The position numbers and the translations under genes were made by a program. The notes under the pieces were generated by a model. The model searched no databases. It saw nothing but the letters and a program-made list of their open reading frames with translations, and had not been told where the DNA came from. 64,000 nt of DNA. Origin: Oceanimonas smirnovii ATCC BAA-899 (lineage in GTDB: Bacteria; Pseudomonadota; Gammaproteobacteria; Enterobacterales; Aeromonadaceae). The DNA lies in contig NZ_KB908455.1 in NCBI RefSeq assembly GCF_000381965.1, positions 62,001 to 126,000 of the forward strand. Reading direction: 5' to 3'. Positions 2,682 to 23,045 of the stretch are shown in pieces (position 1 is the stretch's first letter; each line of letters starts with the position of its first letter).

Positions 2682-4752
<2,071 letters not shown>

Positions 4753-9015: not shown

Positions 9016-10533
9016 ATGGATCTCGGATTTCCGTGGTGGCTTCGTGTGGAGCACTTTCTCAACATCATCTTTATTTCGTTTCTGGTTCGCTCAGGCCTGG
9101 AAATTCTGGGTACCTACCCCAAGCTTTACCGCTCCCAGCACACGGTGCCCGGCTCAGCCTGGGCCAAATTTACCGTTCAGCAGGAGCCAAAGCACAAATA
9201 CTACACAGTAGGCGGTGAAGACAGTGACTACTCCCCGCGCATATCGCTGCCCGGCCATCGCCAGCTGGGTCTGGGCCGTTACTGGCATTTCATCACAGTG
9301 ACCGGCTTTGTGACCTGCTGGGTAATCTACTTTATATTGCTGCTGGTTACCGGCCAGTGGCGGCGCTACGTGCCCACCAGCTGGGACACCTTCACTCAGG
9401 CGGGCCACGATATGCTGGCCTATCTCGCTTTCACCATGCCCCACCCCGCCGATGGCATGGTGTTTAATGCCCTGCAGCAACTCTCTTACGGTTTTGTGGT
9501 GCTGATACTCACGCCTTTGGTCATTCTGACCGGTGCCTTTCAGTCTCCGGCCATTGCCAACCATTTTTCGCGCATTACCCGCCTGCTCGGCGGCCGCCAG
9601 GTGATCCGCAGCACGCACTTTCTGTGCCTGGTTGGCTATGTCGCCTTCTTTGCCGTGCACCTGCCGCTGGTGTTTCTTCACGGCTACCTGCACGAAACCT
9701 CCAAAATGGTGCTGGGCCACTCCAACAACCCGATTTTAGGCGGCGCTATTTTCACCCTCGGCCTTGCGCTTGTTATTGCGCTGCATGTGGTGGCCACCCG
9801 CTGGACCCTGGCGGACGGCCGCGCCGTAGAGAGATTGCATAACCGGATTGTGCGGCCATGGTCCAACCTGCTGTATAAACTGCCCGCGCGCATGCACTAC
9901 GACCGCTCCAATATCACAGGTAAAGACGTGGGGCTGAAGAACGCCACACAAAACTTTCGTGGCAGCGGACGGCCACCCGAAACCCCCGAATACCTGGCGC
10001 TGATGGCCAACGGCTATGAAGACGACTACGTGCTTGAGATTGGCGGTTACGTAGAACGCCCCATGACCCTGACCATTGCGGATCTGCGCGAGCTGGCCGC
10101 AGGCCACTCTCAAACCACACTGCATCACTGTGTGCAGGGCTTCAGCTCCATCGGGCGCTGGCGTGGCATTGCCGTGGCTGATCTGCTGGATCTGGTTAAG
10201 CCCCTGCCCGGCGCCACCGATGTGGTGTACACCAGCTTTCAGAACATGGGCCGCGATGATGCCCTGTATGAGGGGGGAACCTACTACGAGTCCACCCCCA
10301 TGGTGGAAGCGCGCATGCCCCAGACAATGATTGCCTTTGAGCTGAACGACGAAGGCGAGATCCCGGCGAAAAATGGCGCGCCGGTGCGGCTGCGTCTGGA
10401 AACCTCAACCGGATTTCGCAGCCTGAAGTGGCTGGAACGTATTGAGGTGGTTAACCGCTACGACATTATCATTGAAGGCCGCGGTGGCTACTTTGAGGAC
10501 ACCGACTTCTTCGACCGCAACCAGCTGATCTGA
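9016..10533 (+). CDS. Cytochrome b561-type membrane domain fused to sulfite-oxidase-type molybdopterin domain
   Basis: A 505-residue protein. Residues 1 to about 285 contain membrane helices with candidate haem-ligand histidines (H91, H131, H201, H215, H257), as in b-type cytochromes of the hydrogenase/formate-dehydrogenase/thiosulfate-reductase class. Residues about 335-490 match the oxidoreductase molybdopterin-binding domain: C372 in TTLHHCVQGFSSIGRW is at the position of the Mo-ligand cysteine, and GFRSLKWLERIEVV is the conserved end. The fusion suggests that electrons pass directly between Moco and the quinone pool. There is no Tat signal. The substrate cannot be read from the sequence. 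Confidence 0.85.
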   Translation: MDLGFPWWLRVEHFLNIIFISFLVRSGLEILGTYPKLYRSQHTVPGSAWAKFTVQQEPKHKYYTVGGEDSDYSPRISLPGHRQLGLGRYWHFITVTGFVTCWVIYFILLLVTGQWRRYVPTSWDTFTQAGHDMLAYLAFTMPHPADGMVFNALQQLSYGFVVLILTPLVILTGAFQSPAIANHFSRITRLLGGRQVIRSTHFLCLVGYVAFFAVHLPLVFLHGYLHETSKMVLGHSNNPILGGAIFTLGLALVIALHVVATRWTLADGRAVERLHNRIVRPWSNLLYKLPARMHYDRSNITGKDVGLKNATQNFRGSGRPPETPEYLALMANGYEDDYVLEIGGYVERPMTLTIADLRELAAGHSQTTLHHCVQGFSSIGRWRGIAVADLLDLVKPLPGATDVVYTSFQNMGRDDALYEGGTYYESTPMVEARMPQTMIAFELNDEGEIPAKNGAPVRLRLETSTGFRSLKWLERIEVVNRYDIIIEGRGGYFEDTDFFDRNQLI

Positions 10534-10560: not shown

Positions 10561-11424
10561 ATGACCCTGAAAAAAACACGCCCGCGCACGCAAGCCGAGC
10601 TGGATGCCTACATGGCCGCACGCCCCAGACCGGTGCGCAACACCTTTGACGGTATGTATCCGCTGCACCAGGATATGGAGCTGTCGGACGAGCAGGTACA
10701 AATAGTGCTGGACTACCTGCAAGAGGTGAACTTTCATCTGCCCGGTGCCGCGCCCCATGAGTTTCTTGTGGTGCGCTGGGCCCGTTACACCGGGTTTCAG
10801 TTTATGCAGGAAGATCTGGAAGCCTATGCCATTGGCCTGAGATGCACCCATCCAGGCATGGAAGATCAGCACACCTTTATTCGTATGTCCTGGGGCCAGC
10901 TGATGGGCGACCCTGATGCCGTTCGCCTGCCGGTGAACGAACCCGTGCTGGCAAGCGACATGATGACCCTCGCCCGCTATCGCGACACCCGCACCGGCCC
11001 GTCAAACACCGGCGTAAATGCCTATGGCGATGGCCCTGCACCCGGCACCGATTTTGACCTGAAGCTGCTGAACGGCGCACTGGATGACGTGATAGCGCAA
11101 CACCAGACCGGCCAAGGGCGTGAAATCAACTCATGGTGGAACCCCGCCCTGAACTGGGGCGTGGCACTGGCAGGACGCTACCCGCGACTGAAATACTTTG
11201 AGCACAAGGGTCACCTGGATGAGAACACCCTGACTGCGTTGCACGCCTTTGAAGCACGGGCCGCAGAGGCAGAAACCGCCTTGCAGGCACTCGGCCTGGC
11301 CTTACCTGCAGCCGTGGCCGAGTCTGCGCTTAAACAGGCGGAAAAAGCAGAGCGCGGAAGCTTTACTCACAAACATCGTATTCGCAACCCACAGCCGCTC
11401 ACACAAACAGAGAAAGACCGCTAG
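10561..11424 (+). CDS. Conserved protein of unknown function in the molybdopterin cluster
   Basis: A 287-residue soluble protein, not recognised. It starts 27 bases after the molybdopterin fusion gene with GGAAAG ahead of the ATG and so is probably its operon partner. It is rich in Trp, Arg and acidic residues (for example VVRWARYTGF, FIRMSWGQLM, NSWWNPALNWG) and ends with a charged Ala/Glu-rich helix (about 235-265) and a basic tail. No signal peptide, membrane helix or metal-cysteine motif was seen. It might be a chaperone or regulatory partner, but that rests only on position. Confidence 0.7.
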   Translation: MTLKKTRPRTQAELDAYMAARPRPVRNTFDGMYPLHQDMELSDEQVQIVLDYLQEVNFHLPGAAPHEFLVVRWARYTGFQFMQEDLEAYAIGLRCTHPGMEDQHTFIRMSWGQLMGDPDAVRLPVNEPVLASDMMTLARYRDTRTGPSNTGVNAYGDGPAPGTDFDLKLLNGALDDVIAQHQTGQGREINSWWNPALNWGVALAGRYPRLKYFEHKGHLDENTLTALHAFEARAAEAETALQALGLALPAAVAESALKQAEKAERGSFTHKHRIRNPQPLTQTEKDR

Positions 11425-11427
11425 CAT

Positions 11428-11529
11428 TCACACATTGAGCTGATACTGAAGATCTCTGGCTTCATCACCGGTCATGCCCCTGAACCTCCACTGATAGTGG
11501 TTGTTGCCCCTTGATGGTAATTTCCACAT
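11428..11529 (-). pseudogene. Possible gene remnant between the molybdopterin cluster and the integron
   Basis: A 33-codon open frame (starts MWKLPSRGNNHYQWRF, ends at TGA) has protein-like composition. A second minus-strand frame through the same DNA also looks coding (NPIDVEITIKGQQPLSVEV), as expected if a frameshift lies inside an old gene. No complete gene or ribosome site is present, and no attC was recognised here. The 154 bases between 11424 and 11579 hold nothing else I can name. Confidence 0.3.
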
Positions 11530-11578
11530 CAATCGGATTCAGCCCTATTTTATCTTCTCTTACACACAGAACCAAAAA

Positions 11579-11971
11579 TCAAAAACAAAAATTAAGAAAC
11601 TGTGTTTCTTTTACATCAACACTCTCTACCTCTGCAGCCTCATTTAAATAAACATCGATACGACATGCCTTCAAAAACTCAATCACATCTCCTATCATCA
11701 TCCCTTTTTTAAGGGTTCGTCCAGATGAGTCATCAAACCACCAAAGTAAATCGGCAAACTGATTTTCTGTGAAATGCCAAGTAAAGACATTCGACTTCTT
11801 CAATGCAATCCGCTTTATTTGATTACTAGTCCGGGCTCTGTAAACAACCCTGTCATACTGTATCAGCTCGACATGAATAGGCTTATCATATGGATAGTGA
11901 ATTGTCACCTGCGCAGGATAGAGATAAAGAAAAAGAACAATTACAACTGCAATAAATATCATCCTAACCAT
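11579..11971 (-). CDS. Small membrane-anchored protein, distal integron cassette
   Basis: About 130 residues, not recognised. A hydrophobic N-terminal segment (MIFIAVVIVLFLYLYPAQ) suggests one membrane anchor or an uncleaved signal; the rest is a soluble alpha/beta-like domain. The ATG at 11971 lies in the GTTAATG core of the attC-like site to its right; a TTG further up (11986) or the ATG at 11962 are alternatives. No attC could be recognised after its stop, so this is the last cassette visible and the array end is eroded. AT-rich compared with the gene cluster to its left. Confidence 0.6.
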   Translation of the reverse strand: MVRMIFIAVVIVLFLYLYPAQVTIHYPYDKPIHVELIQYDRVVYRARTSNQIKRIALKKSNVFTWHFTENQFADLLWWFDDSSGRTLKKGMMIGDVIEFLKACRIDVYLNEAAEVESVDVKETQFLNFCF

Positions 11972-12042
11972 TAACGCCACATTCAAAAATAAAAAATAAT
12001 TAATATCAACACATTCTGCGCAACACCCAAACCTTGTTTATA
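11969..12042 (-). repeat. Degenerate attC-like site
   Basis: On the plus strand the site opens with CATTAACGCC and closes with CCTTGTTTATA, matching the ends of the clear attC sites in position and orientation. The interior is AT-rich and lacks a convincing hairpin. It falls between two cassette-like genes (72 aa and 130 aa). Confidence 0.4.
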
Positions 12043-12057
12043 CAGAGCGCCGTCATT

Positions 12058-12276
12058 TTATTCCCTGCTTAATTTCACACAGAAATATTTTAACACCAAC
12101 CCCAATAACGCACCGTAAAATAAATAGGTCAACAAGTAAACAGACATTACCACTAGGCTCCACTCCTCACAATTTAATTCTCCTGTCCTTTCATAACAAA
12201 AATCAGAAAGCTGATGAACAAATGCATTGTAAAAAAAGTAAGCAGAAAAAATTATTGATGTGGCTAAAACTATCAA
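12058..12276 (-). CDS. 72-aa two-helix membrane protein, integron cassette
   Basis: A small protein with two hydrophobic segments (about 2-20 and 43-66) separated by a loop with two cysteines (FCYERTGELNCEEW). Not recognised. The frame opens with TTG, with GGGGGATAAGGGAT before it; no ATG is available in frame. It lies between two weak attC sites and reads in cassette orientation. Small membrane proteins of unknown role are common integron cargo. Confidence 0.5.
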   Translation of the reverse strand: MIVLATSIIFSAYFFYNAFVHQLSDFCYERTGELNCEEWSLVVMSVYLLTYLFYGALLGLVLKYFCVKLSRE

Positions 12277-12306
12277 ATCCCTTATCCCCCATACATGCTA
12301 CTTATC

Positions 12307-12365
12307 CACCAACAACAGTCCGTTAAAGCGGGTGACATCCTCGTTTGTGATTTTCCTTGTTATAT
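12307..12365 (-). repeat. Weak attC-like site
   Basis: The plus strand starts CACCAACAACAG and ends TTTCCTTGTTATAT, with an inner CCG...CGG hairpin. The TTGTGATTTTCCTTGTTAT end resembles the TTGTGATTGGCCTTGTTA end of the clear sites at 16026 and 17177. The left core (GTTGGTG on the cassette strand) deviates from GTTRRRY, so confidence is moderate. Confidence 0.5.
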
Positions 12366-12421
12366 TTTATAGCGACGACTTAATGACTAATGTTCATCAT
12401 TACACTTAAGTGATACATTAA

Positions 12422-12712
12422 TTAATTTTTGTGTTTAGGCGACTCTAGAGACCATAGAAAAAACACGCTAACAAAGAAAATTATCAACGCTGATATCCTT
12501 AGGGCAATACCTATATCACTTACTAAATGTTCAAATGAAAATATAATCCCACTAAAAGCGGCCAAACCGTACAAAATTAATATTGAAAGAATTCTTACTC
12601 TATTAAGGCACTTGTTTTGCAAGTAATCTTGTTTAGAATACCCCCTTAAACAAAACACCAACAAAAAGCAAAAAAACACAACAAATGAATAACTTAGAAA
12701 CAGAGTTGACAT
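12422..12712 (-). CDS. 96-aa three-helix membrane protein, integron cassette
   Basis: Hydrophobic segments at about 3-22, 42-63 and 71-89, with a basic loop after the first (RGYSKQDYLQNKCLNRVR). Not recognised. GAGGGG lies nine bases before the ATG. A 31-codon ORF precedes it in the same cassette. It may be a small inner-membrane protein; no catalytic motif is visible. Confidence 0.6.
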   Translation of the reverse strand: MSTLFLSYSFVVFFCFLLVFCLRGYSKQDYLQNKCLNRVRILSILILYGLAAFSGIIFSFEHLVSDIGIALRISALIIFFVSVFFLWSLESPKHKN

Positions 12713-12763
12713 ATTTTCAACCCCTCACTTGATTTAGCATCATCCAACTCACGTTTTGATAAT

Positions 12764-12859
12764 TTATTTATCTTCATCATCAACGCACTCAAAATAACTA
12801 GGATCACCGTTAACATTCACTTCCACAATTAAGATATTCAATATTTGATACTTTATCAT
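12764..12859 (-). CDS. 31-aa ORF at the head of an integron cassette
   Basis: The ORF starts MIKYQILNILIVEV and ends FECVDDEDK. Its ATG lies seven bases from the attC-type core GTTATTT (12867-12873), with CGGAG five bases upstream, a good ribosome site. It is followed after 51 bases by the 96-aa membrane protein. It may be a short leader or a real small protein (N-terminal hydrophobic, C-terminal acidic). Confidence 0.4.
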   Translation of the reverse strand: MIKYQILNILIVEVNVNGDPSYFECVDDEDK

Positions 12860-12866
12860 GCTCCGA

Positions 12867-12911
12867 AATAACGCCTACAGCAGAGGGAAACCGCAGCGCA
12901 GCGTAGGTGAT
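12867..12911 (-). repeat. Left part of an attC site cut by an IS3-family element
   Basis: AAATAACGCCTAC at 12867-12879 is the core-proximal end of an attC (GTTATTT on the cassette strand). The site runs directly into the terminal repeat of the degenerate IS3 element at 12912. The matching other end of an attC (CCTTGTTAGGT) appears beyond the IS at 14089-14099. The two halves do not pair well, so they may come from different sites brought together by a deletion. Confidence 0.5.
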
Positions 12912-12942
12912 GTTCACCCGATAAAACGGACACGCTCTTTCA

Positions 12943-13727
12943 CTACGCCACCAAGGCTTCATATTCGACTGGACTCATATAATTCAGACTTGAGTGCAGT
13001 CGAAATCGATTATAAAAATGCTGGATGTATCCGGCCAGTTTATCCCGCAGATGCATCTCTCCATGAAAGCGGTTTTCTTTAATCAGCTCACCCTTCAGGG
13101 TATGGAAAAACGATTCCATCTCCGCGTTGTCAGTGCACATACCCGGCCGATTAGTACTGGCTCTGATCCCGTGTCGTTTCAGTAAGCGCTGTAACTCATG
13201 AGCACGATATTCGACTCCTCGGTCCGTATGGAAGATCAGACCAGGTTCCGGCCGGCGGTTTCTCAGCGCCATCTAAGAGATACCGTTTTACGCTTACCCA
13301 GTGACCATCCCACGGCACGGCGGAAATACAGGTGGATGACGGCGGCAAGATACAGCCAGCGAGAGCCGCCCCGGATGTAGGTCAGATCGGCTGCCCAATG
13401 TTGATTGGGAGCAGTCGTGGCTGGTCTTTACGTAGGTTTACCGATTTCTGATAAAAGCGGTGCAGGCCAGCCACCTTGCGATAAACCCGGGCGACGCGCT
13501 TTCAATCCGGCTTCCCGCATCAGCCGCTCAACACGCTTTCTGCCGACATGAATGCCTTGTCGCTTCAGGGCTTGGTTACGCTGGCTCGTTTTACGTTGCA
13601 GCCAAGCATAAAAGCCACTGGCAGACACCTTCAGAAGGCGACACAAACAACGTACACCATAGCGAGCACGGTGCTGAGCTACGAACCGGAACCGCGCTTG
13701 CGTTCCTCCGCGAGAAAACGTTGCCAC
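12943..13727 (-). pseudogene. IS3-family transposase orfB, frameshifted and deleted
   Basis: Pieces of an integrase-core (DDE) transposase occur in different frames. The N-terminal part (13428-13727: FRFVAQHRARYGVRCLCRLL, then RKRVERLMREAGLKAR) lacks the usual TYGSPRI segment. A middle part (about 13290-13437) reads NQHWAADLTYIRGG with the first Asp. The C-terminal part (12943-13272) reads LIFHTDRGVEY and CTDNAEMESFFHTLKGEL with the second Asp and the Glu. Frame changes near 13440 and 13275 and small deletions make it inactive. Confidence 0.9.
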
Positions 13728-14020
13728 TTTTTTAGCAGGTCGCTTTCCTCCTTCAGGTCAGCCACCTGCTTTTCCAGCTTTCGGATCCGTTCGTTTTCGC
13801 TCAGGACCTTCGGTTTACTCTCAGCTTTCCTGCGTTTGTCCGCCACGATCTTTCCTTCTCGATACTCTTTACGCCAGCGTGACAACATGAAGGGATGAAT
13901 GTCCAGAGACTCCGCCACTCCCTTTACACTCGCTCCGCTCAGGTGCGTCAGCCTAATAGCTCTGACTTTGAATTCATTCGTGTACTGCCGAGTCTTCTTC
14001 TGGTTCTTGTACGCTGGCAT
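13679..14020 (-). CDS. IS3-family transposase orfA (helix-turn-helix protein)
   Basis: A 113-residue protein with an N-terminal helix-turn-helix (about 12-55: NEFKVRAIRLTHLSGASV, HPFMLSRWRKEYREG) and a leucine-rich coiled coil (about 75-100: NERIRKLEKQVADLKEE). It overlaps the start of orfB by 49 bases, the normal arrangement for programmed frameshifting in IS3 elements. OrfA itself looks intact, but without orfB it can only bind DNA. Confidence 0.88.
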   Translation of the reverse strand: MPAYKNQKKTRQYTNEFKVRAIRLTHLSGASVKGVAESLDIHPFMLSRWRKEYREGKIVADKRRKAESKPKVLSENERIRKLEKQVADLKEESDLLKKWQRFLAEERKRGSGS

Positions 14021-14080
14021 TTCTCACCTCGTCTTCGTTTGACTGAGGTGTCCACTAAAACGGGGGAACTACAATGTCCG

Positions 14081-14099
14081 TTTGAATGCCTTGTTAGGT
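14081..14099 (-). repeat. Remnant of the other end of an attC site
   Basis: TTTGAATGCCTTGTTAGGT ends in the GTTAGGT core type and lies where a cassette gene would end. It is cut on its left by the IS3 element. On the cassette strand it reads CCTAACAAGGCATTCAAACG, a common opening of gammaproteobacterial attC sites. Confidence 0.6.
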
Positions 14100-14129
14100 A
14101 TATTAACTAAATAACTGATCCTAATAGTG

Positions 14130-15161
14130 CTACATTCTGGCTGTTCCATAACCACTCCCGGGAAATGGTGAAACCGTGTCCATAAAGTGTCTGACTCGTT
14201 TCAGCAGTGACACCATGCTATGGCACTGGTGATTACGGGTCACCGTTTCATGCAGCTTGTGCCACAGCAGCTCTATCTTGTTTATCCAGGGTGAGTAAAC
14301 CGGCTGGAAGATAAGGATGAACTTGGGATTGTCTGCCAGCCAACTTTGAACCAGCCGGCTCTTGTAGATCACGTAGTTATCCAGGATCAGCGTGATGTTC
14401 CGCGCTCGTCGGTAGCGTCTCTGTAGCGTTTCCAGCAGCGAAATGAACAGGGCCGAGTTCTTTTTATAGCCTGCAACGTACGTCACCTGACCCGTTTTCG
14501 CATGTAGGGCCCCAGCCAGGTAGTGCTTTTCATTGATACCCGGTGTCACGACTTTCTTTTGCTGGCCTCGACGTGTCCAGTCCGCTCCCAGCTTGGGGTT
14601 CAGATCGATATCAACCTCGTCGGCGTAAAGCACAGGATTATCCTGGCAGCAGTCTATAAGTGCTTGTTTCACCTGCTCTACCTTGACGTCATAGTCCGGG
14701 TCCTTGATGCGCAAGGTTGGTACCACTCGACGCCAGACAATGCCTTCACGTGGCAGCCAGCGGCGAAGCGTGGAGGCCGCCATGTTGAGGCCCAGCAAGC
14801 GATTAACTTCGATGGCGAATAACTCAGTAGACCAGCGGCTGCGCTGGTAACCCAGGTCTTGCGGTGAAAACTGAATCAACATCTGGAGAACTCGAATAAT
14901 ATGTCGAACTGGCAAAGAAGGTGGTCGTGCAGGTCGCTGCGAACGTAACGCCTCAAGCCCGCCTTCGTGATACCAGTTGAGCCAACGGCCCAGTGTTGAG
15001 CGGGCGGCACCGGTCAGCTGGTGAATTTTTTTGAGCGTGTAGCCTTCGTAACGCAGCAGAATGGACATGACTCGACGGGCATGCTGCTTGTCGCGCGTGG
15101 TCTGAATAATCTTGTGCATTCGGCGTCGCTCTGGGCGAGGCAGGGATGGTAAGATCGGCAT
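14130..15161 (-). CDS. IS630-family transposase
   Basis: A 343-residue transposase with an N-terminal helix-turn-helix region (about 30-110) and a DDE domain: DEVDIDLNPKLG, LILDNYVIYKS and PWINKIELLWHKLHE supply the acidic residues. The ATG at 15161 is chosen for the AAAGGA upstream; a GTG at 15218 would add 19 residues. The stop codon TAG takes its TA from the flanking TA target dinucleotide at 14131-14132, just outside the element. The gene appears intact. Confidence 0.92.
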   Translation of the reverse strand: MPILPSLPRPERRRMHKIIQTTRDKQHARRVMSILLRYEGYTLKKIHQLTGAARSTLGRWLNWYHEGGLEALRSQRPARPPSLPVRHIIRVLQMLIQFSPQDLGYQRSRWSTELFAIEVNRLLGLNMAASTLRRWLPREGIVWRRVVPTLRIKDPDYDVKVEQVKQALIDCCQDNPVLYADEVDIDLNPKLGADWTRRGQQKKVVTPGINEKHYLAGALHAKTGQVTYVAGYKKNSALFISLLETLQRRYRRARNITLILDNYVIYKSRLVQSWLADNPKFILIFQPVYSPWINKIELLWHKLHETVTRNHQCHSMVSLLKRVRHFMDTVSPFPGSGYGTARM

Positions 15162-15275
15162 GAACTCAGTCCTTTGGGTGTTGTTTTTGGTTTTGTTTGG
15201 CGACTGATCAGATCGCACAAACTGGACTGAGTTCCCTTCCTCCAGTGATCTACTATTCGGAACAGCTATTTAGTA
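14131..15275 (-). mobile_element. IS630-family insertion sequence inside a cassette gene
   Basis: About 1.14 kb. TA dinucleotides at 14131-14132 and 15274-15275 fit the TA target duplication of this family. The ends share GCTGTTCC (14140-14147) and GGAACAGC (15259-15266) as part of short inverted repeats. Removing the element and one TA joins the 3' end of the membrane-protein cassette gene at its right to an open frame that runs to the attC remnant at its left. Confidence 0.8.
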
Positions 15276-15658
15276 TAAAAGAACTTGTTAATTATCATTA
15301 CATGTAAATATGGAATGACAGACACCACCCCAAAAGAAAAAATAGAAAAAGGCGTTTCGGGTAAGTGTTTTTTTAATTCATTGCCGTTAAAAAATAGAAC
15401 CAAAAAACCTACAAAAGTAATGACCAAGCCAATATGTGATAAATAAATAAAAGTTTTATCTATATTTATCACATCACCGACAACCGCTTTTATGATAATA
15501 TAGATCAATGAAACCATACTTAAAATAGATAACACTAAAGTAATAAGGAATATCGGTTGTGAATTTGATAGAAAAAGAATTACAGCTAAAAACAATAAGG
15601 CAACTGTTGGTAATATTTCAACACAAAGTAGAATTTTATTTATAAGCAACACTTTCAT
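15266..15658 (-). pseudogene. Cassette membrane-protein gene truncated by IS630
   Basis: A 130-codon frame starting MKVLLINKILL with four hydrophobic segments (about 12-30, 35-58, 72-92, 105-122). The final Thr-Lys codons and the stop come from the IS630 end. Across the IS, the original frame continues (...NKFFYSTIRISYLVNIPNKA) into the attC remnant at 14081-14099, so about 10-15 C-terminal residues were displaced. The start lies just after the GTTAGGT core of the attC at 15664. Function unknown; the shortened product may still be made. Confidence 0.7.
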
Positions 15659-15663
15659 TTTAT

Positions 15664-15719
15664 ACCTAACGCTTTACTCAGCCGCCGCTTTTAGGCGTGT
15701 GTGATTGGCCTTGTTATGT
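15664..15719 (-). repeat. attC site (56 bp)
   Basis: The plus strand runs from ACCTAACGC to CCTTGTTATGT, with an inner CGCC..GGCG hairpin. Its right-hand 31 bases (from GGCGTGTGTGATTGGCC onward, including TATTTT beyond the core) are identical to the end of the attC at 16026-16101, so the two share recent ancestry. Confidence 0.85.
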
Positions 15720-15732
15720 ATTTTAGCTCCAG

Positions 15733-15993
15733 TCATTTGGCGCTTTTACCATCTTCAGGGCCTATAAAAATTGACATCCCTTCGGCCAAAATAGTTTGTT
15801 TCGCCTCTGTAAGAGCTGCCGATTCAGTCACGAATCCATCATTCCACACATAAGAATTTCCATGCTCACCCTCAAGTTCGAGAGCCCAATCTTTTTCACC
15901 TTCAAGCTGATAAATATGCACCGCAACAGTATGCCCTTTACTCGAAATAGATTGGGACAACGGGGATATTATTAGTTTAGGTTCTTCGCTCAT
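15733..15993 (-). CDS. 86-aa protein of unknown function, integron cassette
   Basis: Starts MSEEPKLIISPLSQSI. A soluble acidic protein with a likely beta-sheet core (TVAVHIYQLEGEKDWALEL, NSYVWNDGFVTES) and a C-terminal helix. The pattern VEIYxxxxxxWxLEVxxxxGxxxxWxxxFxT is shared by many small hypothetical proteins, but I cannot name the family. The frame is open upstream into the attC, so the ATG at 15993 is chosen because it follows the attC. Bounded by clear attC sites on both sides: one gene, one cassette. Confidence 0.75.
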   Translation of the reverse strand: MSEEPKLIISPLSQSISSKGHTVAVHIYQLEGEKDWALELEGEHGNSYVWNDGFVTESAALTEAKQTILAEGMSIFIGPEDGKSAK

Positions 15994-16025
15994 ATATCTC
16001 ACTCTAATACAGCATGATTGTTTAT

Positions 16026-16101
16026 ACATAACGCCGCCAACACAGGCGAGCGTCAGCGAGTCCAGCCAGCTTGCTGGCGTGTGTGATTGGCCTTGTTATG
16101 T
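16026..16101 (-). repeat. attC site (76 bp)
   Basis: The plus strand runs from ACATAACGCCGCC to GGCCTTGTTATGT, with inner palindrome GCCAGC-TT-GCTGGC. Nearly identical over its whole length to the attC at 17177-17252; the few differences are in the end cores and one internal base. Confidence 0.92.
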
Positions 16102-16107
16102 ATTTTT

Positions 16108-16659
16108 CTAAAATTGGATTACAGGCTGCATTACACACCGGCAATGACTATCACATGTACAATTATTATTGATAAGTTCGTTGATGTTTTCATTTACTGA
16201 TATTTCAACACCTTGTTGTAAACTACACCACTGGCAATCCCTACCATCACCGCAATTCATAAGAGTATATTTTTTGATGCCAGCAGACTTATATTCATTT
16301 AATGAGTCATCTCTATTTTTGGCAAAGGTGGCACGATAGTAAATTCTTGATAATATTTCTTTGGGATCTTTTTGTTTGACCCCATCACTTGTGAGAATAC
16401 TAACCAACTCGTGAGTGATTGCTAGTCTTGCATTAATGCCAAGAAATTTCTTTTCCTCGGCTGTTAATTTATTTCCGGTCTTGTTTAAATTTGTAACATG
16501 GGTTAGGTGATCTAAAGCAGTTTTATGGCATTCAGATTTAATATAAGAACATACATCTAGCTCTTGTTGAAGATACACCTCAATAGGCCTTCCTATTACC
16601 TCTTCGTTACCACTAGAAGTGGTATCTCGCTTTATTAGCAATTTTAAGAATTTCAACAT
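16108..16659 (-). CDS. 183-aa cassette protein with phage Mu-F/minor-head-like C-terminal motif
   Basis: The N-terminal part (about 1-125) is helical and unrecognised. The C-terminal 60 residues read AGIKKYTLMNCGDGRDCQWC, then CTCDSHCRC (C136, C142, C145, C167, C169, C173, C175). This layout (a GIKKY-type strand, D-x-x-x-C-x-x-C, a Gly-containing turn, then H-C-R-C) is like the C terminus of phage Mu F / SPP1 gp7-type minor head proteins. No other phage gene is nearby. The ATG at 16659 is chosen as the first after the attC core; the frame extends upstream through the attC. Confidence 0.65.
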   Translation of the reverse strand: MLKFLKLLIKRDTTSSGNEEVIGRPIEVYLQQELDVCSYIKSECHKTALDHLTHVTNLNKTGNKLTAEEKKFLGINARLAITHELVSILTSDGVKQKDPKEILSRIYYRATFAKNRDDSLNEYKSAGIKKYTLMNCGDGRDCQWCSLQQGVEISVNENINELINNNCTCDSHCRCVMQPVIQF

Positions 16660-16683
16660 ATCAGCGATTCTCACTCTTGTATT

Positions 16684-16777
16684 GCATAACGCCAAGCTAA
16701 CCCGCACGAAACCTTGACATATACTTTTGCGAAGCAAAAATGCCAAGCGTGGATTGTGGTTAAGCGCTTTGTTATGC
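16684..16777 (-). repeat. attC site (94 bp)
   Basis: The plus strand runs from GCATAACGCC to GCTTTGTTATGC. Outer arms GCTAACC/GGTTAAGC and inner hairpin TTTTGC-GAA-GCAAAA can fold. The stop codon of the neighbouring 117-aa gene overlaps the right core, as is common in cassettes. Confidence 0.88.
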
Positions 16778-17130
16778 TATTTTTCATCGATCGATGAAGG
16801 CACATTGCAAGGCAAGGCCAATGGCACATCAAATTGGACTCGGTGAACTGCTTGAGTTTCGTCTGTGTTGGTTAACCCACCACCGAATGATAATACAGAT
16901 AGTTTTGCCTTACCGCTGGCTTCTTGAGAACTAATGTCTTTCACTTGAATTGCAACATCAAACTTAATAATTTGCGCATCGGCGTTTGAGGAAAAGGGGG
17001 CAGAACCAATAATTTTATGTTCTTTGGCTGGGTTAACTGTCCCTCCCATATCATTTATTACCTCTGATGCATCTTCAACACCTTTAGTGATCTGAACTAA
17101 AGTTTCTTTGATGTACTCATCTAACTGCAT
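16777..17130 (-). CDS. 117-aa protein of unknown function, integron cassette
   Basis: Starts MQLDEYIKETLVQITKGVED, a helix, then a beta-rich domain: APFSSNADAQIIKFDVAIQV, KAKLSVLSFGGGLTN and VHRVQFDVPLALP. The pattern of an N-terminal LxxFIxxTLxQIxxGV helix followed by repeated FDVA/FDVP strands recurs in small uncharacterised proteins, but I cannot assign a function. No signal peptide or membrane helix. The stop lies inside the attC core to its left. Confidence 0.75.
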   Translation of the reverse strand: MQLDEYIKETLVQITKGVEDASEVINDMGGTVNPAKEHKIIGSAPFSSNADAQIIKFDVAIQVKDISSQEASGKAKLSVLSFGGGLTNTDETQAVHRVQFDVPLALPCNVPSSIDEK

Positions 17131-17176
17131 TGATACCTACCGACTTCCTAATTAATGAATAAAATCTGGGAAAATA

Positions 17177-17252
17177 GCATAACGCCGCCAACACAGGCGA
17201 GCGTCAGCGAGTCCAGCCAGCTTGCTGGCGTTTGTGATTGGCCTTGTTAGGC
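17177..17252 (-). repeat. attC site (76 bp)
   Basis: The plus strand runs from GCATAACGCCGCC to GGCCTTGTTAGGC, with inner GCCAGC-TT-GCTGGC. The near twin of the site at 16026-16101. The stop of the hydrolase gene overlaps its right core. Confidence 0.92.
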
Positions 17253-17993
17253 TTTGCTCTGTTCGTTGCAGCCCACGCCACTTATATAACTTTTAACTAA
17301 TCCTGCAATTTTTTCTTTCAACCAAGCAGGCCCATCGTCCGACATATCGTTGTGCTTTGACTCTGGTATTTCTATTACACAAATATCGTAATCAGTACTT
17401 TCCTGGACTGTCGGGAGCACACCGTCGTCTGCGGGGAAATCACTACCTCGTATAGATAAGATACTAATTTCTTTCTTTCGAGGTAAAGGTACGCGTCTGT
17501 GATCAAGAGTAATAATAGATTTTACATAGGGCTTATCTTTATTGCCAAGCCACGCAGAAATATCGCCACCGTTAGAGTGACCAACTAAAAGTAGCTCGTT
17601 AAATGCATAGTTGGGATAACGAGATTCAAGTTTATCCTTGAGAAAACTAAGTGTTATGGCTCCTCTAATCCAGTTTTCACTTCTGGTTTCAAAAAGGTTA
17701 CCTTCAATTGAAAGTGAAGGATCTTCAGGCAACTCATGCCGTATAGCAACCACCATATATCCTAGCTCGGAAAGCTGCTCAGTTAAAAAAGTATACTTGG
17801 TATGAGCTACGCCATATCCCGCACTAAGGAATGCAACCGGACATTTATTTTCAACAGTGCAATTACTGATATCACTTGGATAGGATATTTCGACAGGGAT
17901 TGTTCTATTTCGGCTTTTATCCTGAATTTCTTCAGCACTCACAGCGCCCACAACAAAAATGGAAACAGCTAAAATCGTTTTCAAATACTTCAT
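17247..17993 (-). CDS. Secreted alpha/beta hydrolase, integron cassette
   Basis: A 248-residue protein. A signal peptide (about 1-20, cleavage near VSA-EE) predicts export. The alpha/beta hydrolase core shows PVAFLSAGYGVAH (oxyanion region), nucleophile elbow LLVGHSNGGD (S140), an acidic residue near FPADDG (D185-D190) and the catalytic His in ESKHNDMSD (H214). The layout resembles lipase/dienelactone-hydrolase-like esterases; the substrate is unknown. AGGAGA precedes the ATG. One gene, one cassette, between clear attC sites. Confidence 0.85.
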   Translation of the reverse strand: MKYLKTILAVSIFVVGAVSAEEIQDKSRNRTIPVEISYPSDISNCTVENKCPVAFLSAGYGVAHTKYTFLTEQLSELGYMVVAIRHELPEDPSLSIEGNLFETRSENWIRGAITLSFLKDKLESRYPNYAFNELLLVGHSNGGDISAWLGNKDKPYVKSIITLDHRRVPLPRKKEISILSIRGSDFPADDGVLPTVQESTDYDICVIEIPESKHNDMSDDGPAWLKEKIAGLVKSYISGVGCNEQSKA

Positions 17994-18007
17994 TATTTCT
18001 CCTAGAA

Positions 18008-18112
18008 GCCTAACGCCCGCCTCAACTGCCGGAGGCTACTGGCGCCTTTTGTGCGGCTTTTTGCACAGAAGGTGACAGTGGCCGAAGGTCAGATTGCAGG
18101 CGTTTGTTATGG
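18008..18112 (-). repeat. attC site (105 bp)
   Basis: The plus strand runs from GCCTAACGCCCGCC to GCAGGCGTTTGTTATGG. On the cassette strand it opens ATAACAAACGCCTG and ends GGCGGGCGTTAGGC, the typical ends of Vibrio VCR sites. The interior folds through CTGCCGGAGGCTACTG/CAGTGGCCGAAGGTCAG and TTTTGTGC/GCACAGAA. It closes the ABC-3C cassette; the ATPase stop codon lies within its first core. Confidence 0.93.
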
Positions 18113-20170
18113 CATTTGACTCACAGGTTTCAAAAGCTTGTAGCCGCACTCTATTAAGTGATGATTTACTCCGTGCACAGACTCATCAAATACTTCATCA
18201 CTCTCATCAAAAGATGCAGCCACAATACCTTGAATATTTCGCTGTTTAGAGATATTCGTCAAAAGTGCATTTACACTTGTGACCCCCATAGAATGCTGAC
18301 CTGGCTCATCCAAAAGAACTAATCCAGGGTGATTCCCGCCTAACTCTTCTGAAGCCGAATATACTGCTAGTAAGTAAGCCCAGATGAGCCTCACAAAATC
18401 ACTTGCTGAAGAATCAGATTTTATATCCGTATTTACTTCTCTCAACTCCAGCCCTGCCAAATATGGAAACAATGTGTCTCTATTTATTTCTATATCTGAA
18501 GTTGGCGCACTCTTATAGCCAAAAAGGCTCGCATAGCTTCGGAAATGATTCTGAAATTTATTATATTTCTTGACATCCTCAGCAGATGATTTTCGTTCCG
18601 GCAAGCCTGCTAACTCGGCCTTAATATTCCGAAACTCATTGCTGAAATTTACTAGATTACTGACCGAACTGTTTATGATCCTTTCTGCTTTTAAGAGGCT
18701 TTCCACTTTAAGTTCAAGTTGTAGTTTAACTCTTAAGTCAGCCTCTTCTGCATTGCCAGATAACCGTATCTGCTTTTTAAAGCTCAAGCATACTGCACGC
18801 TTATCAGAAACATTTTCTGAATATTCACGAGCTTGAGACTCTAATTTTGTAATTGTTTTTTCTAACCCTAGAATATACCTAGATACCATCTTTTTCTGAC
18901 TATCGAGGTACCTTACATTTTCGTCAATACTCATCGGCTGTATAAGGGTATCTGCTAAAAACAAGGAGTCATCTACGTGTTGATGACAAGCCGGACAACT
19001 ATCAAGCGCAAGGCTCAAACCACTCTCGGCACCAAAATTTTTGAGTTTTTTAGCAATCTTGTTTTTTTCTAAGTCTTTTTCTATTTCTGATCTAAGTGAT
19101 AAATACTCAGTCAGCCTTGATTTGGAAAGCCGAATCTCCGCATTAGCGGAATCAAGCATAGAAACTAGCTGGTCTAATTCTGCTTTTGAACTCTCATATG
19201 CCTCTATCAAATCGATAGAAACATCATCTCTTGTTTTATTCTCAGCCTCGTCAATAGCCTCAATTTTTCTTACCAATTCAACAATGTAATCACTTAGCGC
19301 AAAGGTAGCATCTCCAACTTGCTTCGTAATTCTGACTAGTTGTGGGTCAAACATATCGTCTGCTGTGCGTTTAATACCTATCACATTGATAGACTGGTCC
19401 TCTTCCAACAATCCAATTTTAACCTTCTCCTCCGACCATTTTGATTGAATATTAGTCAAGCCTGACATCAAAGTTGATTTGAGTCTTTCGTTTTCGAAAA
19501 CATCCAACCCCAGAATAAATTCAACGATTTTTGTTCTCACATCACGGATAGCATAATAGGGTGTATTAGCTATGTAATCAGTCCACCCTCTCTTTTGCTC
19601 AATTAGGAGCGCTGAAAAAATAGTTTGAATATAGAGCTTTACCTCACCACCATTGGCACCAGGAACGAAAGGAAGACTTAAACCGACGAAATTCTCAAGG
19701 AATGTAAAATACCCCGATTCAGCGTTCTGTGCTGATCCTTTATCATGCAAATACTTAGGAGATATATCAAATTCTCGATTTTTTCCCGAAAGATAATCCC
19801 CATGTATCACCTCGATTAGTTTCGTATCTTTATCAGTAGAGTTAATGGCTCTTTTTAAAGTTACAACATCACTATTTTTATTTGAGATCTGTAAGTAAAC
19901 ATAAGATGATACTATCCTTATCTTATCCTTCTTTTCACTTTCAACATATTCCTTCAATGCATAAGGCAAGGTCTTTTCACCTTTCCCGCCAAGAATTTCC
20001 TCCATGCCAAGAGAATAGATAAGAGAATTAACCAATGTGCTTTTGCCAGAGGAATTATTACCGCGTACAATATTTAATCCAGATTTAAATTCACATTCAA
20101 AACCGTATTCACCGCCGGTCGTATTGAGAACTATTTTAAATTTCTCTAGGTGCAAACCAATCATTCCCAT
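18107..20170 (-). CDS. Rad50/SMC-like ATPase of an ABC three-component system
   Basis: A 687-residue protein. Walker A RGNNSSGKST (about 36-45) follows a GLNIVRG strand. Two coiled-coil arms (about 230-380 and 420-530) flank a hook CPACHQ (392-397) like the Rad50 zinc hook. A degenerate signature region (SSASDFVRLIWAYLLAV, about 588-604) and Walker B GLVLLDEPGQHS (D621, E622) close the ATPase. It overlaps the middle gene by 10 bases and is the last of three coupled genes. In ABC-3C systems this subunit is thought to sense DNA or nucleoprotein and drive the effector. AT-rich, unlike the core genome. Confidence 0.82.
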   Translation of the reverse strand: MGMIGLHLEKFKIVLNTTGGEYGFECEFKSGLNIVRGNNSSGKSTLVNSLIYSLGMEEILGGKGEKTLPYALKEYVESEKKDKIRIVSSYVYLQISNKNSDVVTLKRAINSTDKDTKLIEVIHGDYLSGKNREFDISPKYLHDKGSAQNAESGYFTFLENFVGLSLPFVPGANGGEVKLYIQTIFSALLIEQKRGWTDYIANTPYYAIRDVRTKIVEFILGLDVFENERLKSTLMSGLTNIQSKWSEEKVKIGLLEEDQSINVIGIKRTADDMFDPQLVRITKQVGDATFALSDYIVELVRKIEAIDEAENKTRDDVSIDLIEAYESSKAELDQLVSMLDSANAEIRLSKSRLTEYLSLRSEIEKDLEKNKIAKKLKNFGAESGLSLALDSCPACHQHVDDSLFLADTLIQPMSIDENVRYLDSQKKMVSRYILGLEKTITKLESQAREYSENVSDKRAVCLSFKKQIRLSGNAEEADLRVKLQLELKVESLLKAERIINSSVSNLVNFSNEFRNIKAELAGLPERKSSAEDVKKYNKFQNHFRSYASLFGYKSAPTSDIEINRDTLFPYLAGLELREVNTDIKSDSSASDFVRLIWAYLLAVYSASEELGGNHPGLVLLDEPGQHSMGVTSVNALLTNISKQRNIQGIVAASFDESDEVFDESVHGVNHHLIECGYKLLKPVSQMP

Positions 20171-20604
20171 TCCCTAATAATATTTTCCACCATACCTTCA
20201 GTTATTTTCGAACCTATTGACTGAAGAAAAAAGTAATCATCTTTGAAAGCCATCTCACTATCAATTTCTGAAACGTATTTGGCGCCATCTTGAGTTAACT
20301 TATATGAAAGTCCAGACTTACTAATCAGCCCTTCAGCTTCAGCATACTGAAGTGATATATTGACTGCTGGATCAACCCCCCATACCCCAAATAAAATTTG
20401 GTTTTGATTCGCCGACTCTAACAACATTTTCTTTCTTATCTCATCTTTCAAAACCCAGCTGAATAAATGTAGTCGAATTAGGCTAGACTTCTTTCCTCGT
20501 GATGAGAGATATAATACCAGTAATAGTTGAGTGATTTTATAGATAGGCCTATGCTCAGCCATAAGAGGCATAGGCTTTCTGTGAAATGTAAGTTTACTCA
20601 TCAT
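20161..20604 (-). CDS. Middle component of the ABC three-component system
   Basis: A 147-residue protein. It is predominantly helical with a winged-helix look: KITQLLLVLYLSSRGKKSSL and LHLFSWVLKDE, then YAEAEGLISKSGLSYKLTQDG, a typical wing with recognition helix before it. Placed between the nuclease-like gene and the Rad50-like ATPase, with overlapping stop/start codons on both sides (TGATG), it fits the small middle component (MC) that defines ABC-3C systems. No catalytic motif. Recognition rests more on context than on sequence. Confidence 0.7.
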   Translation of the reverse strand: MMSKLTFHRKPMPLMAEHRPIYKITQLLLVLYLSSRGKKSSLIRLHLFSWVLKDEIRKKMLLESANQNQILFGVWGVDPAVNISLQYAEAEGLISKSGLSYKLTQDGAKYVSEIDSEMAFKDDYFFLQSIGSKITEGMVENIIREWE

Positions 20605-21521
20605 TCAATACCTAACGGACACAATGCAATCCATTTAGACGTCATTTGATCAGCTATCCGGTATATCTCTGCCTCTCCTAAAGTAGGTGTTGCCTCACTT
20701 AATCTTTGGGCTAATTCGTCTCGAATCTTAGATATCAATTCTTCAGCATCCCCGCGCCAAGTTATACACAACTCTTCTACTTCACTTTCGTACTGATTTA
20801 TTGCTCTCAACACGTGAAAGTAGATTTCCGAAGCGTTTTTCTCTATTTCTTTTAGGAATGGATCGTTTTTTAGCCATTTATTTGATGTTATGCGATTCAA
20901 TTTTAGATGCTTTTCTTCATCTAAAACCCCATTGAATGTACAGCGAACTTTATTCTTCTTACTAATATTTTTTTCATATTCTGAGATTTCTTGTTCTTCT
21001 GCTTGGCTTTCTAATTCTAATGCGGAAAAAAGAGTGATTTTTTTCCCTTTCGCTGTTTGTATTGCGTTAATTTCCGAGGCAAAATAATCAGCGTCTTGCA
21101 GAATAACTTTGAATTCAGGGTCTATAATGGAGAGCCCCCATGTGACAACCTCTACTTGCTTCGTTTGCGCATGACTTAGCAATTTATTGTCGGTGATTAG
21201 CGGAGTAACGAAAACCCACTCCCTAATTTTCGTATTACCCATTCGACGAGATATTTCATTTTCGTAGGCTCGAAGCTTCTCAAGGTCCTTAGTTATTTTG
21301 TCTCTCTGCTTTTCGTACAATTCTTTTTGAGTGTAGTGGGTATCGGGGCAATAACACTGAAATGCCACGCCGTCTAATTTCGTAAAGCCTTCGATCCCGA
21401 AATCACCAGGGGATGCAACCATCTCTTGGTATTGTTGATCTTTATACTTTGATTTGAAAACTAGTTGACACAGGTCTTCCCATGAATCCCCGTCAAAAGT
21501 TCCATATTTAGTCTGGATCAT
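20601..21521 (-). CDS. Mrr-like restriction-endonuclease-fold protein of the ABC three-component system
   Basis: A 306-residue protein. The N-terminal domain (about 1-130) resembles Mrr/PD-(D/E)XK nucleases: WEDLCQLVF (E15), SPGDFGIEGF (D40) and FQCYCPD (Q55), in the order Glu helix, GDxGIEG, QxK strand. The usual Lys of QxK is Tyr here (Y57), which may mean altered or lost cleavage. EKQRDKITKDLEKL follows as a helix. The C-terminal half (about 170-306) is helical and acidic, perhaps the MC/ATPase interaction part. It is the first gene after attI, with GGAATTAATAA before the ATG. Confidence 0.78.
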   Translation of the reverse strand: MIQTKYGTFDGDSWEDLCQLVFKSKYKDQQYQEMVASPGDFGIEGFTKLDGVAFQCYCPDTHYTQKELYEKQRDKITKDLEKLRAYENEISRRMGNTKIREWVFVTPLITDNKLLSHAQTKQVEVVTWGLSIIDPEFKVILQDADYFASEINAIQTAKGKKITLFSALELESQAEEQEISEYEKNISKKNKVRCTFNGVLDEEKHLKLNRITSNKWLKNDPFLKEIEKNASEIYFHVLRAINQYESEVEELCITWRGDAEELISKIRDELAQRLSEATPTLGEAEIYRIADQMTSKWIALCPLGIE

Positions 21522-21564
21522 TTATTAATTCCAAAGTCCAATGTGCCTTCTACGCTGTGGCCTG

Positions 21565-21571
21565 CCATAAC
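21565..21571 (-). other. attI core (probable insertion point of the first cassette)
   Basis: CCATAAC on the plus strand (GTTATGG on the cassette strand) occurs 44 bases before the first cassette gene. It is the same core as the far end of that cassette's attC (GTTATGG at 18106-18112), as expected if attI-attC recombination inserted the cassette here. The AT-rich 21572-21870 stretch up to intI is the expected attI region. A TATAAT lies on the minus strand at 21638-21643 and could be part of the cassette promoter Pc, but no good -35 was seen. Confidence 0.6.
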
Positions 21572-21646
21572 ATTATAATAGTGAGCGTGCTCATATATGT
21601 TCAGACACCCACTCTCGGTAAGTTTCATAATATCCTGATTATAAAA

Positions 21647-21844
21647 TCATTTTCTCTCTTTTAGAGCAATCACTCCGTGATCAAAATGAGCATACTCACT
21701 ATCTGCACGACTTTGCTCGTTATCTACATCATCATCAAGCAAGCTCTTCAATTTACTTGCTTTTTCTGCTCCTAATTGCTGTACACGAGCGCAGTTTGTG
21801 GATAACAAGCATGCAAATTTCACAGCTTGCAATATACTGTACAT
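21647..21844 (-). CDS. Possible small ORF in the attI region
   Basis: A 65-codon frame (MYSILQAVKFACLL... to ...FDHGVIALKERK) lies between intI and the first cassette, read in cassette direction; the frame is open further into intI. Composition is protein-like (charged, LGAEKASKLKSLLDDDVDNE). No ribosome site precedes the ATG, which overlaps the LexA box. It could be a translated leader, an old cassette without attC, or chance. Confidence 0.3.
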   Translation of the reverse strand: MYSILQAVKFACLLSTNCARVQQLGAEKASKLKSLLDDDVDNEQSRADSEYAHFDHGVIALKERK

Positions 21845-21854
21845 GCATACAGTT
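21835..21854. promoter_or_regulatory. LexA (SOS) box upstream of intI
   Basis: TACTGTACATGCATACAGTT contains CTGT-N8-ACAG (21837-21852), the LexA consensus of Gammaproteobacteria. It lies 22 bases before the intI ATG and overlaps TATACT (21833-21838), a possible -10. SOS control of intI is established for Vibrio and class 1 integrons; here it is inferred from the site. Confidence 0.85.
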
Positions 21855-21875
21855 AAGCGTGAGATAGGTAACAGT

Positions 21876-22853
21876 ATGGCTGCCAGTCCGTTTTTAAATC
21901 GCATTCGTCGGGAGCTTCGCTTGGGTAGCTACAGTCTGCGCACCGAAAAAACCTACCTGCACTGGATCAAACGGTTCATTCGCTTTCATCAGCTGCGCCA
22001 CCCGGCCGACATGGGTGCACCAGAGGTTCGCAGCTTTCTTACCTGGCTGGCCGCCGATTGTCATGTTGCCGTCAATACACAGAAAACTGCTCTTAATGCC
22101 CTGGCATTTATGTATCACAAGGTGCTGAATATCGAGCTTGGCGAGCTGGACTTTCATCATGCTACTCAATATCGCCGCCTTCCCGTTGTGCTGACTCAGG
22201 CTGAAATCGCGTTAATCTTCAAACACCTGGATGAACGCAACCGGCTGATCTTCTCATTGCTGTATGGCAGCGGTCTCAGAATCACTGAATGCCTGCGGCT
22301 CAGAGTGCAGGATATTGGTTTTGATGATGGTTCAGTCACCGTTCGTAACGGCAAGGGCAACAAAGACAGAAAAACCATGCTGAGCCAGCGGCTGCACAAT
22401 ATGCTGCACCAACAGATAGAAAGCGCCCTGTCGGTTCAGCAGGAAGATAACCTCAAAGGCGTTGGCCCATCACTGCCCTTCGCCCTTGGCAAAAAATATC
22501 CCAATGCTTTTCGCCAGCCCGCCTGGATGTTTATTTTTCCCTCTGTCAGCCTGTGCAAACATCCTGTTACCGGAGTCGTTTGCCGTCATCACCTGCATGA
22601 CTCAGTGCCACGCAGGGCGCTGAAAGCAGCGGTTCGTCAGTCCGGTATCTGCAACAAGCGCATCAGTTGCCATACCTTTCGCCATTCATTTGCCACGCAT
22701 CTGCTTGAAAGTGGCCGCGATATCAGAACCGTACAGGAGCTGCTGGGGCACAGCGATGTGCGCACTACTCAGATTTACACTCACGTGATAGGTCAGCACT
22801 TTGCCGGCACACACAGCCCTCTGGACTTTCTTGCCGGTGCGGAGAATCAGTAA
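21876..22853 (+). CDS. intI: Integron integrase (tyrosine recombinase)
   Basis: A 325-residue tyrosine recombinase with R135 (LLYGSGLRITE), H266-x-x-R269 (CHTFRHSFATHLLE), H292 (LLGHSDVRTT) and Y301 (IYTHV). It carries the IntI-specific extra segment between the catalytic boxes (GKKYPNAFRQPAWMFIFPS, about 205-223), which separates integron integrases from XerC/D. The ATG at 21876 gives the normal IntI length; the frame is open 26 codons further up but would cross the LexA box. GATAGGTAACAG precedes the ATG. The gene appears intact. Confidence 0.96.
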   Translation: MAASPFLNRIRRELRLGSYSLRTEKTYLHWIKRFIRFHQLRHPADMGAPEVRSFLTWLAADCHVAVNTQKTALNALAFMYHKVLNIELGELDFHHATQYRRLPVVLTQAEIALIFKHLDERNRLIFSLLYGSGLRITECLRLRVQDIGFDDGSVTVRNGKGNKDRKTMLSQRLHNMLHQQIESALSVQQEDNLKGVGPSLPFALGKKYPNAFRQPAWMFIFPSVSLCKHPVTGVVCRHHLHDSVPRRALKAAVRQSGICNKRISCHTFRHSFATHLLESGRDIRTVQELLGHSDVRTTQIYTHVIGQHFAGTHSPLDFLAGAENQ

Positions 22854-23045
22854 TCAGTGTGCTGTTGGCTGAACGCCACGCAGGCTACCGCCAGACCTTG
22901 CAGGCGATCATCCTGATTGCAGCTTTATAAATTTGCGTCCTATTTTGACGTGCTGGCAGGATAATTCAATTGAGACTGATCAATAAGGTGAGCAGGACTG
23001 TTTGATTTTCGGCCATTCAGGCTCAGTGAGCCGAATAAAAGGGGT

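Follow-up and report, generated by a model that had tools for sequence, protein, structure and literature searches.

In a 64,000-nucleotide stretch of the genome of Oceanimonas smirnovii ATCC BAA-899 (contig NZ_KB908455.1, positions 62,001 to 126,000; hereafter the window), three minus-strand open reading frames (ORFs) encoding proteins of 306, 147 and 687 aa (LmuA, LmuC and LmuB) lie beside an integron integrase gene and overlap by 4 and 10 nt, in line with an earlier annotation of this DNA (the original prediction), which had described genes coupled by overlapping codons. That annotation had proposed a three-gene ABC-3C conflict system and suggested a PADLOC search, in which each of the three proteins matched a Lamassu model (Table 1); Lamassu and ABC-3C form one superfamily according to PMC10586767. 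The sole Pfam match above cut-off in the trio is the AAA_23 ATPase on LmuB, of which the genome has a single copy (E ≤ 0.001). The gene order LmuA-LmuC-LmuB recurs in 51 of the 57 loci with an LmuB match; the other six comprise four at contig edges (L047, L052, L055, L058) and two with a partial LmuB within the contig (L051, L059). These family-model matches assign LmuA, LmuC and LmuB to a Lamassu system, which belongs to the ABC-3C group as one of its branches.

Table 1 Coordinates of the Lamassu cassette, its integron and a related array.
Feature	Position	Strand	Basis or remark
Whole gene cassette, 3,557 bp	18014..21570	-	from G^TTATGGC (attI crossover) to G^TTAGGC (crossover in attC R'); breakpoints common to four genomes
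LmuA, 306 aa	20601..21521	-	PADLOC PDLC03852, E 2.9e-39; predicted nuclease effector, helical C-terminal part
LmuC, 147 aa	20161..20604	-	PADLOC PDLC03871, E 3.6e-22; winged-helix middle component
LmuB, 687 aa	18107..20170	-	PADLOC PDLC03863, 351.5 bits, E 2.5e-105; Rad50/SMC-like ATPase
attC of the Lamassu cassette	18008..18112	-	fold scan
attI, region adjoining the crossover	21571..21614	-	likeness to integrase flanks of O. arctica, Thalassolituus and Shewanella
LexA-box-like palindrome ctgtacatgcatacag	21837..21852	.	upstream of intI
Integron integrase IntI	21876..22853	+	TIGR02249, 408 bits (cut-off 265); probable start 21876, listed ORF from 21798
attC, second cassette (248-aa alpha/beta hydrolase-like gene)	17177..17252	-	fold scan
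attC, third cassette (117 aa)	16684..16777	-	fold scan
attC, fourth cassette (212 aa)	16026..16101	-	fold scan
Five attC of the Franzmannia array (locus L009)	2160-2261, 3026-3098, 3948-4031, 5177-5261, 9223-9294		coordinates within L009

The trio lies between the two recombination sites of an integron cassette. The stop codon of LmuB (18107-18109) falls inside attC, in its first arm R'', and on the far side of attI from the trio the integrase gene is transcribed away on the plus strand. The best sequence match of IntI among solved structures is IntI4 2a3v (E 1e-85). The palindrome upstream of intI was recognized by a consensus that we take to be that of the LexA box, and a palindrome similar to it precedes the integrase gene of Oceanisphaera arctica. 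When attI was compared with the flanks of four integron integrases, three matched, most strongly that of O. arctica (76% over 288 columns), with short matches to those of Thalassolituus (32 nt, E 0.001) and Shewanella (23 nt, E 0.005) and none to that of genome G164. The attC of the Lamassu cassette is 84-90% identical to plasmid stretches (among the matches listed, 10 of 77 records), the identity being 84% to stretches of enterobacterial plasmids that bear dfrA16 cassettes and 90% to a stretch of a Shewanella xiamenensis plasmid. No Rfam model matched in 11000-22900 at E ≤ 1.

A scan of genome contigs with LmuB gave 55 loci. Near copies of the cassette, about 90-98.5% identical, were found in three genomes, namely O. 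arctica, Thalassolituus alkanivorans and Shewanella sp. HN-41, whose LmuB proteins are 99%, 99% and 90% identical to that of the window, respectively. The DNA homology ends at or near the cassette ends, spanning 21571-18011 in Shewanella and 21594-18085 in Thalassolituus, where attC is cut short (window coordinates), and in O. arctica an insertion divides it into two blocks (98.4% over 3,446 columns and 91% over 171). The left end lies at the same base, before TTATGGCAGGCCA, in all four genomes. Its left flank resembles the attI of the same genome in O. arctica (89% over 37 nt) and in Thalassolituus (76% over 75 nt), and is attC-like by eye in Shewanella, where the fold scan gave no flag; at the right end, O. 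arctica has a complete attC followed by a further gene and attC. Since the left neighbours differ and the left end is the same, the cassette has recombined at different sites in different lineages. The four-genome comparison fixes the ends of the unit and upholds the originally predicted integron cassette between attI and attC. Of its predicted extent, the attC end stood, with the LmuB stop codon inside attC, and the span did not, the cassette (18014-21570) being wider than the ORF span of 18107-21521; the exact crossover points inside the core words are presumably those marked in Table 1.

The cassette DNA is 98.5% identical between the window and Thalassolituus, against 63% identity of the two IntI proteins, suggesting a recent transfer of the cassette between orders, and all three genes are intact in both genomes. 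These results point, with a probability of roughly 85%, to a Lamassu (ABC-3C) defence operon that is packaged as one integron cassette and moved as a unit by IntI, probably through recombination of attC with attI or of attC with attC. Direct evidence is provided by gene identity from family models, the cassette ends, the same unit at different genome places, low ratios of nonsynonymous to synonymous substitution rates (dN/dS), and invariant catalytic-type residues.

Several observations weigh against this reading. At the right end, half of attC is lost in Thalassolituus and R' is degenerate in Shewanella, the fold-based attC scan flagged the cassette end in neither, and no integrase was seen adjoining the copies in any of the three genomes. 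In addition, LmuA of O. arctica is split by an IS630-like insertion (family read from ORFs), and LmuB of Shewanella contains frameshifts, single-base losses beside A-runs that may be sequencing errors. Such damaged or stranded relatives, together with promoter-like sites near attI that occur at chance level (two, against a shuffle mean of 1.9), would suit a cassette that is a silent or decaying passenger, kept by the stability of the array and without current defence value. That reading is unlikely, with perhaps an appreciable chance left to it. It is opposed by the intact state of all three ORFs in the window, by their first position adjoining attI, and by dN/dS values of 0-0.25 between recent copies, which come from small substitution counts and are given without a formal test. 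Relative to Thalassolituus, dN/dS is 0.25 for LmuA, 0 for LmuC and 0.11 for LmuB (nonsynonymous to synonymous changes 7:7, 0:5 and 8:19); it is 0.15 for LmuA and 0.10 for LmuC relative to Shewanella, and 0.13 for LmuC and 0.09 for LmuB relative to O. arctica. The cassette genes are not shortened against their kin: LmuB of the cassette measures 687 aa, the median of 45 non-cassette relatives being 689, and LmuA has 306 aa, with a median of 308 in its relatives.

The putative effector LmuA carries a restriction-endonuclease-like motif, GDxGxEG...QCYCP...K75, in which all 49 aligned sequences share D40, E44, Q55, Y57, C58 and K75. The canonical Mrr-type motif is D...(D/E/Q)xK, with a lysine that LmuA lacks, tyrosine Y57 standing at the usual lysine position in every aligned sequence; the invariant K75 is a possible stand-in. 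In the predicted model of LmuA (pLDDT 88), K75 falls in the helix that follows core strand three, and other enzymes of the restriction fold can use a lysine placed there. The first Foldseek match of this model is the solved LmuA 9nxx, in line with the originally proposed structural kinship; this resemblance is weak, the best LmuA match having E 6.3e-3. The first 13 matches also include Can2, EcoO109I and Shedu nucleases mixed with unrelated proteins, all weak. Besides Y57, two further results count on the opposite side: no Pfam nuclease, Mrr included, was matched by any of the 39 LmuA members scanned at E 0.1, and Foldseek gave no match to a solved LmuA at E ≤ 0.001. The label "Mrr-like" in the original prediction is therefore only motif-deep, given the absence of Pfam nuclease matches and the tyrosine in place of lysine. 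Both of these points would also suit a moved cassette whose LmuA is no nuclease at all, having a restriction fold without catalysis and acting by binding or other chemistry. This seems rather improbable given the invariance of D40, E44, Q55 and K75, the modelled place of K75 and the nucleases among the higher-ranked Foldseek matches. The motif and the weak fold matches together suggest an enzymatic N-terminal domain, and LmuA may be a PD-(D/E)xK-like effector, its lysine perhaps supplied by the next helix (K75).

The other two components agree with what had been predicted for them. LmuC is modelled as a winged helix (pLDDT 88), with structure matches that are mostly of MarR type and all weak. 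LmuB, described earlier as a Rad50-like ATPase with a CPAC hook, has K43 (Walker A), C392 and C395 (CPAC zinc hook), and D621 and E622 (Walker B) invariant in 48 of 48 aligned sequences; a CPxC hook of this kind is found in many, not all, Lamassu members. E622 deserves attention because the Walker B glutamate of Lamassu LmuB is generally replaced by glutamine (PMC10586767), a trait described as general and not as defining, and the replacement is absent here. A sequence search of solved structures gave no relative of LmuB at E ≤ 0.01, and profile searches of solved structures with LmuA and LmuC gave nothing meaningful.

In studied systems, as reviews describe them, LmuB senses DNA ends or hairpins, and LmuA is freed to form a tetramer, which activates its Cap4 nuclease (PMC10586767, PMC12409362, PMC12904381). 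By analogy, we infer the same mechanism for LmuABC of the window type, including formation of the complex, its trigger, the nuclease activity and the defensive effect. Two LmuB subunits, linked through the CPAC zinc hook, would, together with LmuC, survey abnormal DNA such as ends, hairpins and stalled replication, and LmuA would be kept inactive in the complex and then released to assemble and cut DNA, so that a cell infected by a phage or burdened with a plasmid either dies or is rid of the invader. Expression would come from the integron or from a promoter of the operon's own, and the cassette could presumably still be excised by IntI today. Palindromes able to form hairpins can set off studied Lamassu systems (PMC10586767), and attC sites function in the form of folded DNA hairpins (PMC11641012). 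For this reason, an integron-dwelling Lamassu might have adapted to its array, a tentative and rather doubtful idea that could take two forms. With an altered sensor or effector (the retained Walker B glutamate, the QCY active site), it could ignore attC hairpins, or folded attC or incoming single-stranded cassette or plasmid DNA could be its trigger, so that the system would police the array.

A more distant trio was found in an integron array of Franzmannia pantelleriensis (Halomonadaceae, L009), where it lies between two attC of a five-attC array (mean 0.09, maximum 1 in 100 shuffles); its LmuB is 47% identical to that of the window, and its proteins match the same PADLOC models. At least two attC-like sites were present in 2 of the 55 loci scanned, those of O. 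arctica and Franzmannia, the Thalassolituus and Shewanella copies being known by homology. The more distant kin thus mostly lack an array in the scan. The original prediction had named as contrary evidence that the trio occurs outside integrons and with other ends, which the close copies do not show. A single clade of all cassette-borne trios, which held in an LmuB tree of 49 rows, was lost after three more relatives were added. The later trees (LmuB, 52 rows; LmuA, 51 rows; both with long-branch warnings) omit the IS-split LmuA of O. arctica, the short LmuA of L012 and L016, nine LmuB shorter than 600 aa, and L004, which is from the same genome as L079. They contain a well-supported six-member group (100/99 and 100/98) made up of the cassette-borne trios and two chromosomal trios, G164 and G770. 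Because both kinds share this group, the trio may have been captured twice, or captured once and have escaped once. The fold scan found no attC array in three further trios (L079, L087 and L088). One borderline attC-like hairpin, with energy at the cut-off, runs from the chromosomal LmuB stop in L087 (G770; 9696-9760) and could be an attC remnant or due to chance; as a remnant, it would favour one capture with a later escape.

The proof of the cassette lies in the shared breakpoints and not in the attC scan. With a strict fold cut, the 9.6-kb array yielded four attC, and 100 shuffles gave 0.03 on average and 1 at most, the cut having been picked after the sites were seen. With a loose fold cut, the cassette strand gave five hits against six to nine in five shuffles, no better than chance; when the ends of the trios were scanned at a looser cut, L007, L009 and, weakly, L060 were picked up. 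The Lamassu attC and most or all of the other sites in the array escaped scans that used strict R''/R' or arm-complementarity rules, and the fold-based scan took their place. The failure of the loose scan to exceed shuffles and the scarcity of arrays among related trios could hint at an ordinary chromosomal Lamassu that lies beside an integron by chance with a fortuitous attC-like hairpin at its end, but this is contradicted already by the left breakpoint, identical to the base in four genomes, as well as by host-type attI-like sequence at the left in three genomes and by the match of attC to attC of resistance cassettes, and has very little probability.

The wider spread of the cassette was searched in plasmids, phages and genomes. 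Cassette DNA was matched by 77 plasmid records, none over 80% of the cassette, and the ten listed match its attC end only; by tblastn, LmuB was found in 24 plasmid records and LmuA in 22, all at less than 60% identity. A Polaromonas plasmid (L089) carries a homologous trio, with LmuB annotated in pieces, a few genes from BREX brxL and pglZ. Among viral contigs, 23 pattern matches gave no confirmed case, and phages gave no DNA match to the cassette. Among 369 genomes drawn from the class, three besides the window's own contained cassette DNA, as fragments only.

Other features of the integrons were also observed. In the window, the attC of the second and fourth cassettes are near-identical and flank different cassettes. 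An attC-like site (by eye) at 12866-14105 is apparently split by an IS3-family element, with parts near 12866 and 14095 and a partial transposase at 12943-13272, and an IS630-family transposase (14130-15218; NCBIfam, 235 bits) lies within the array. The cassette gene at 16108-16746 has a weak phage minor capsid match (TIGR01641, E 7.9e-5, below cut-off), with a possible phage origin, and that at 16777-17130 a weak, below-cut-off match (E 0.0097) to Trypco2, the trypsin-co-occurring domain, which is of a type associated with conflict systems. In O. arctica, the integron integrase, located elsewhere in the genome, is broken; about 45 kb from it on the same contig, an attI-like sequence (L007, 4175-4504), with no integrase seen beside it, is perhaps a second, orphaned integron start.

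In summary, integron-borne defence is known, from anti-phage cassettes (Darracq 2025, Kieffer 2025 and Getz 2025, via PMC12409362 and PMC12444791) and from Xanthomonas integrons, in which DefenseFinder detected twelve system types including restriction-modification, abortive infection, Kiwa and Shedu (PMC12444791); the word Lamassu is absent from the main text of the latter. A review reports that integrons lack larger defence systems, those with more than two genes, and the three-gene Lamassu cassette in several marine bacteria is an exception to this reported absence, with evidence of movement. A Lamassu cassette may already stand in the tables of Darracq, Kieffer, Getz, Haudiquet or Robins. 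Integrons are now regarded as defence libraries, but of small systems, and a three-gene, SMC-based cassette of 3.56 kb occurring across families suggests a less rigid size limit than has been reported and an exchange of operon-sized systems as complete units. It also makes it possible to test directly how a system that senses hairpins exists within an array of them. Like Wadjet (JetABCD), the system would couple an SMC-type sensor to a nuclease, but Wadjet has four components of different composition (PMC10586767), and no Wadjet family is among the best 25 of 29 PADLOC matches for LmuB. It shares with Lamassu/DdmABC the order of effector, small middle component and Rad50/SMC-like ATPase with a zinc hook, and differs from them in an LmuA with GDxGxEG...QCYCP, tyrosine for lysine and no Pfam nuclease match, in a Walker B glutamate kept where PMC10586767 gives glutamine, and, from studied Lamassu, in being carried as an integron cassette. 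As in integron-borne anti-phage cassettes, the defence genes are packaged in an attC cassette, but unlike the integron-borne defence reported so far, the packaged unit comprises three genes without shortening.

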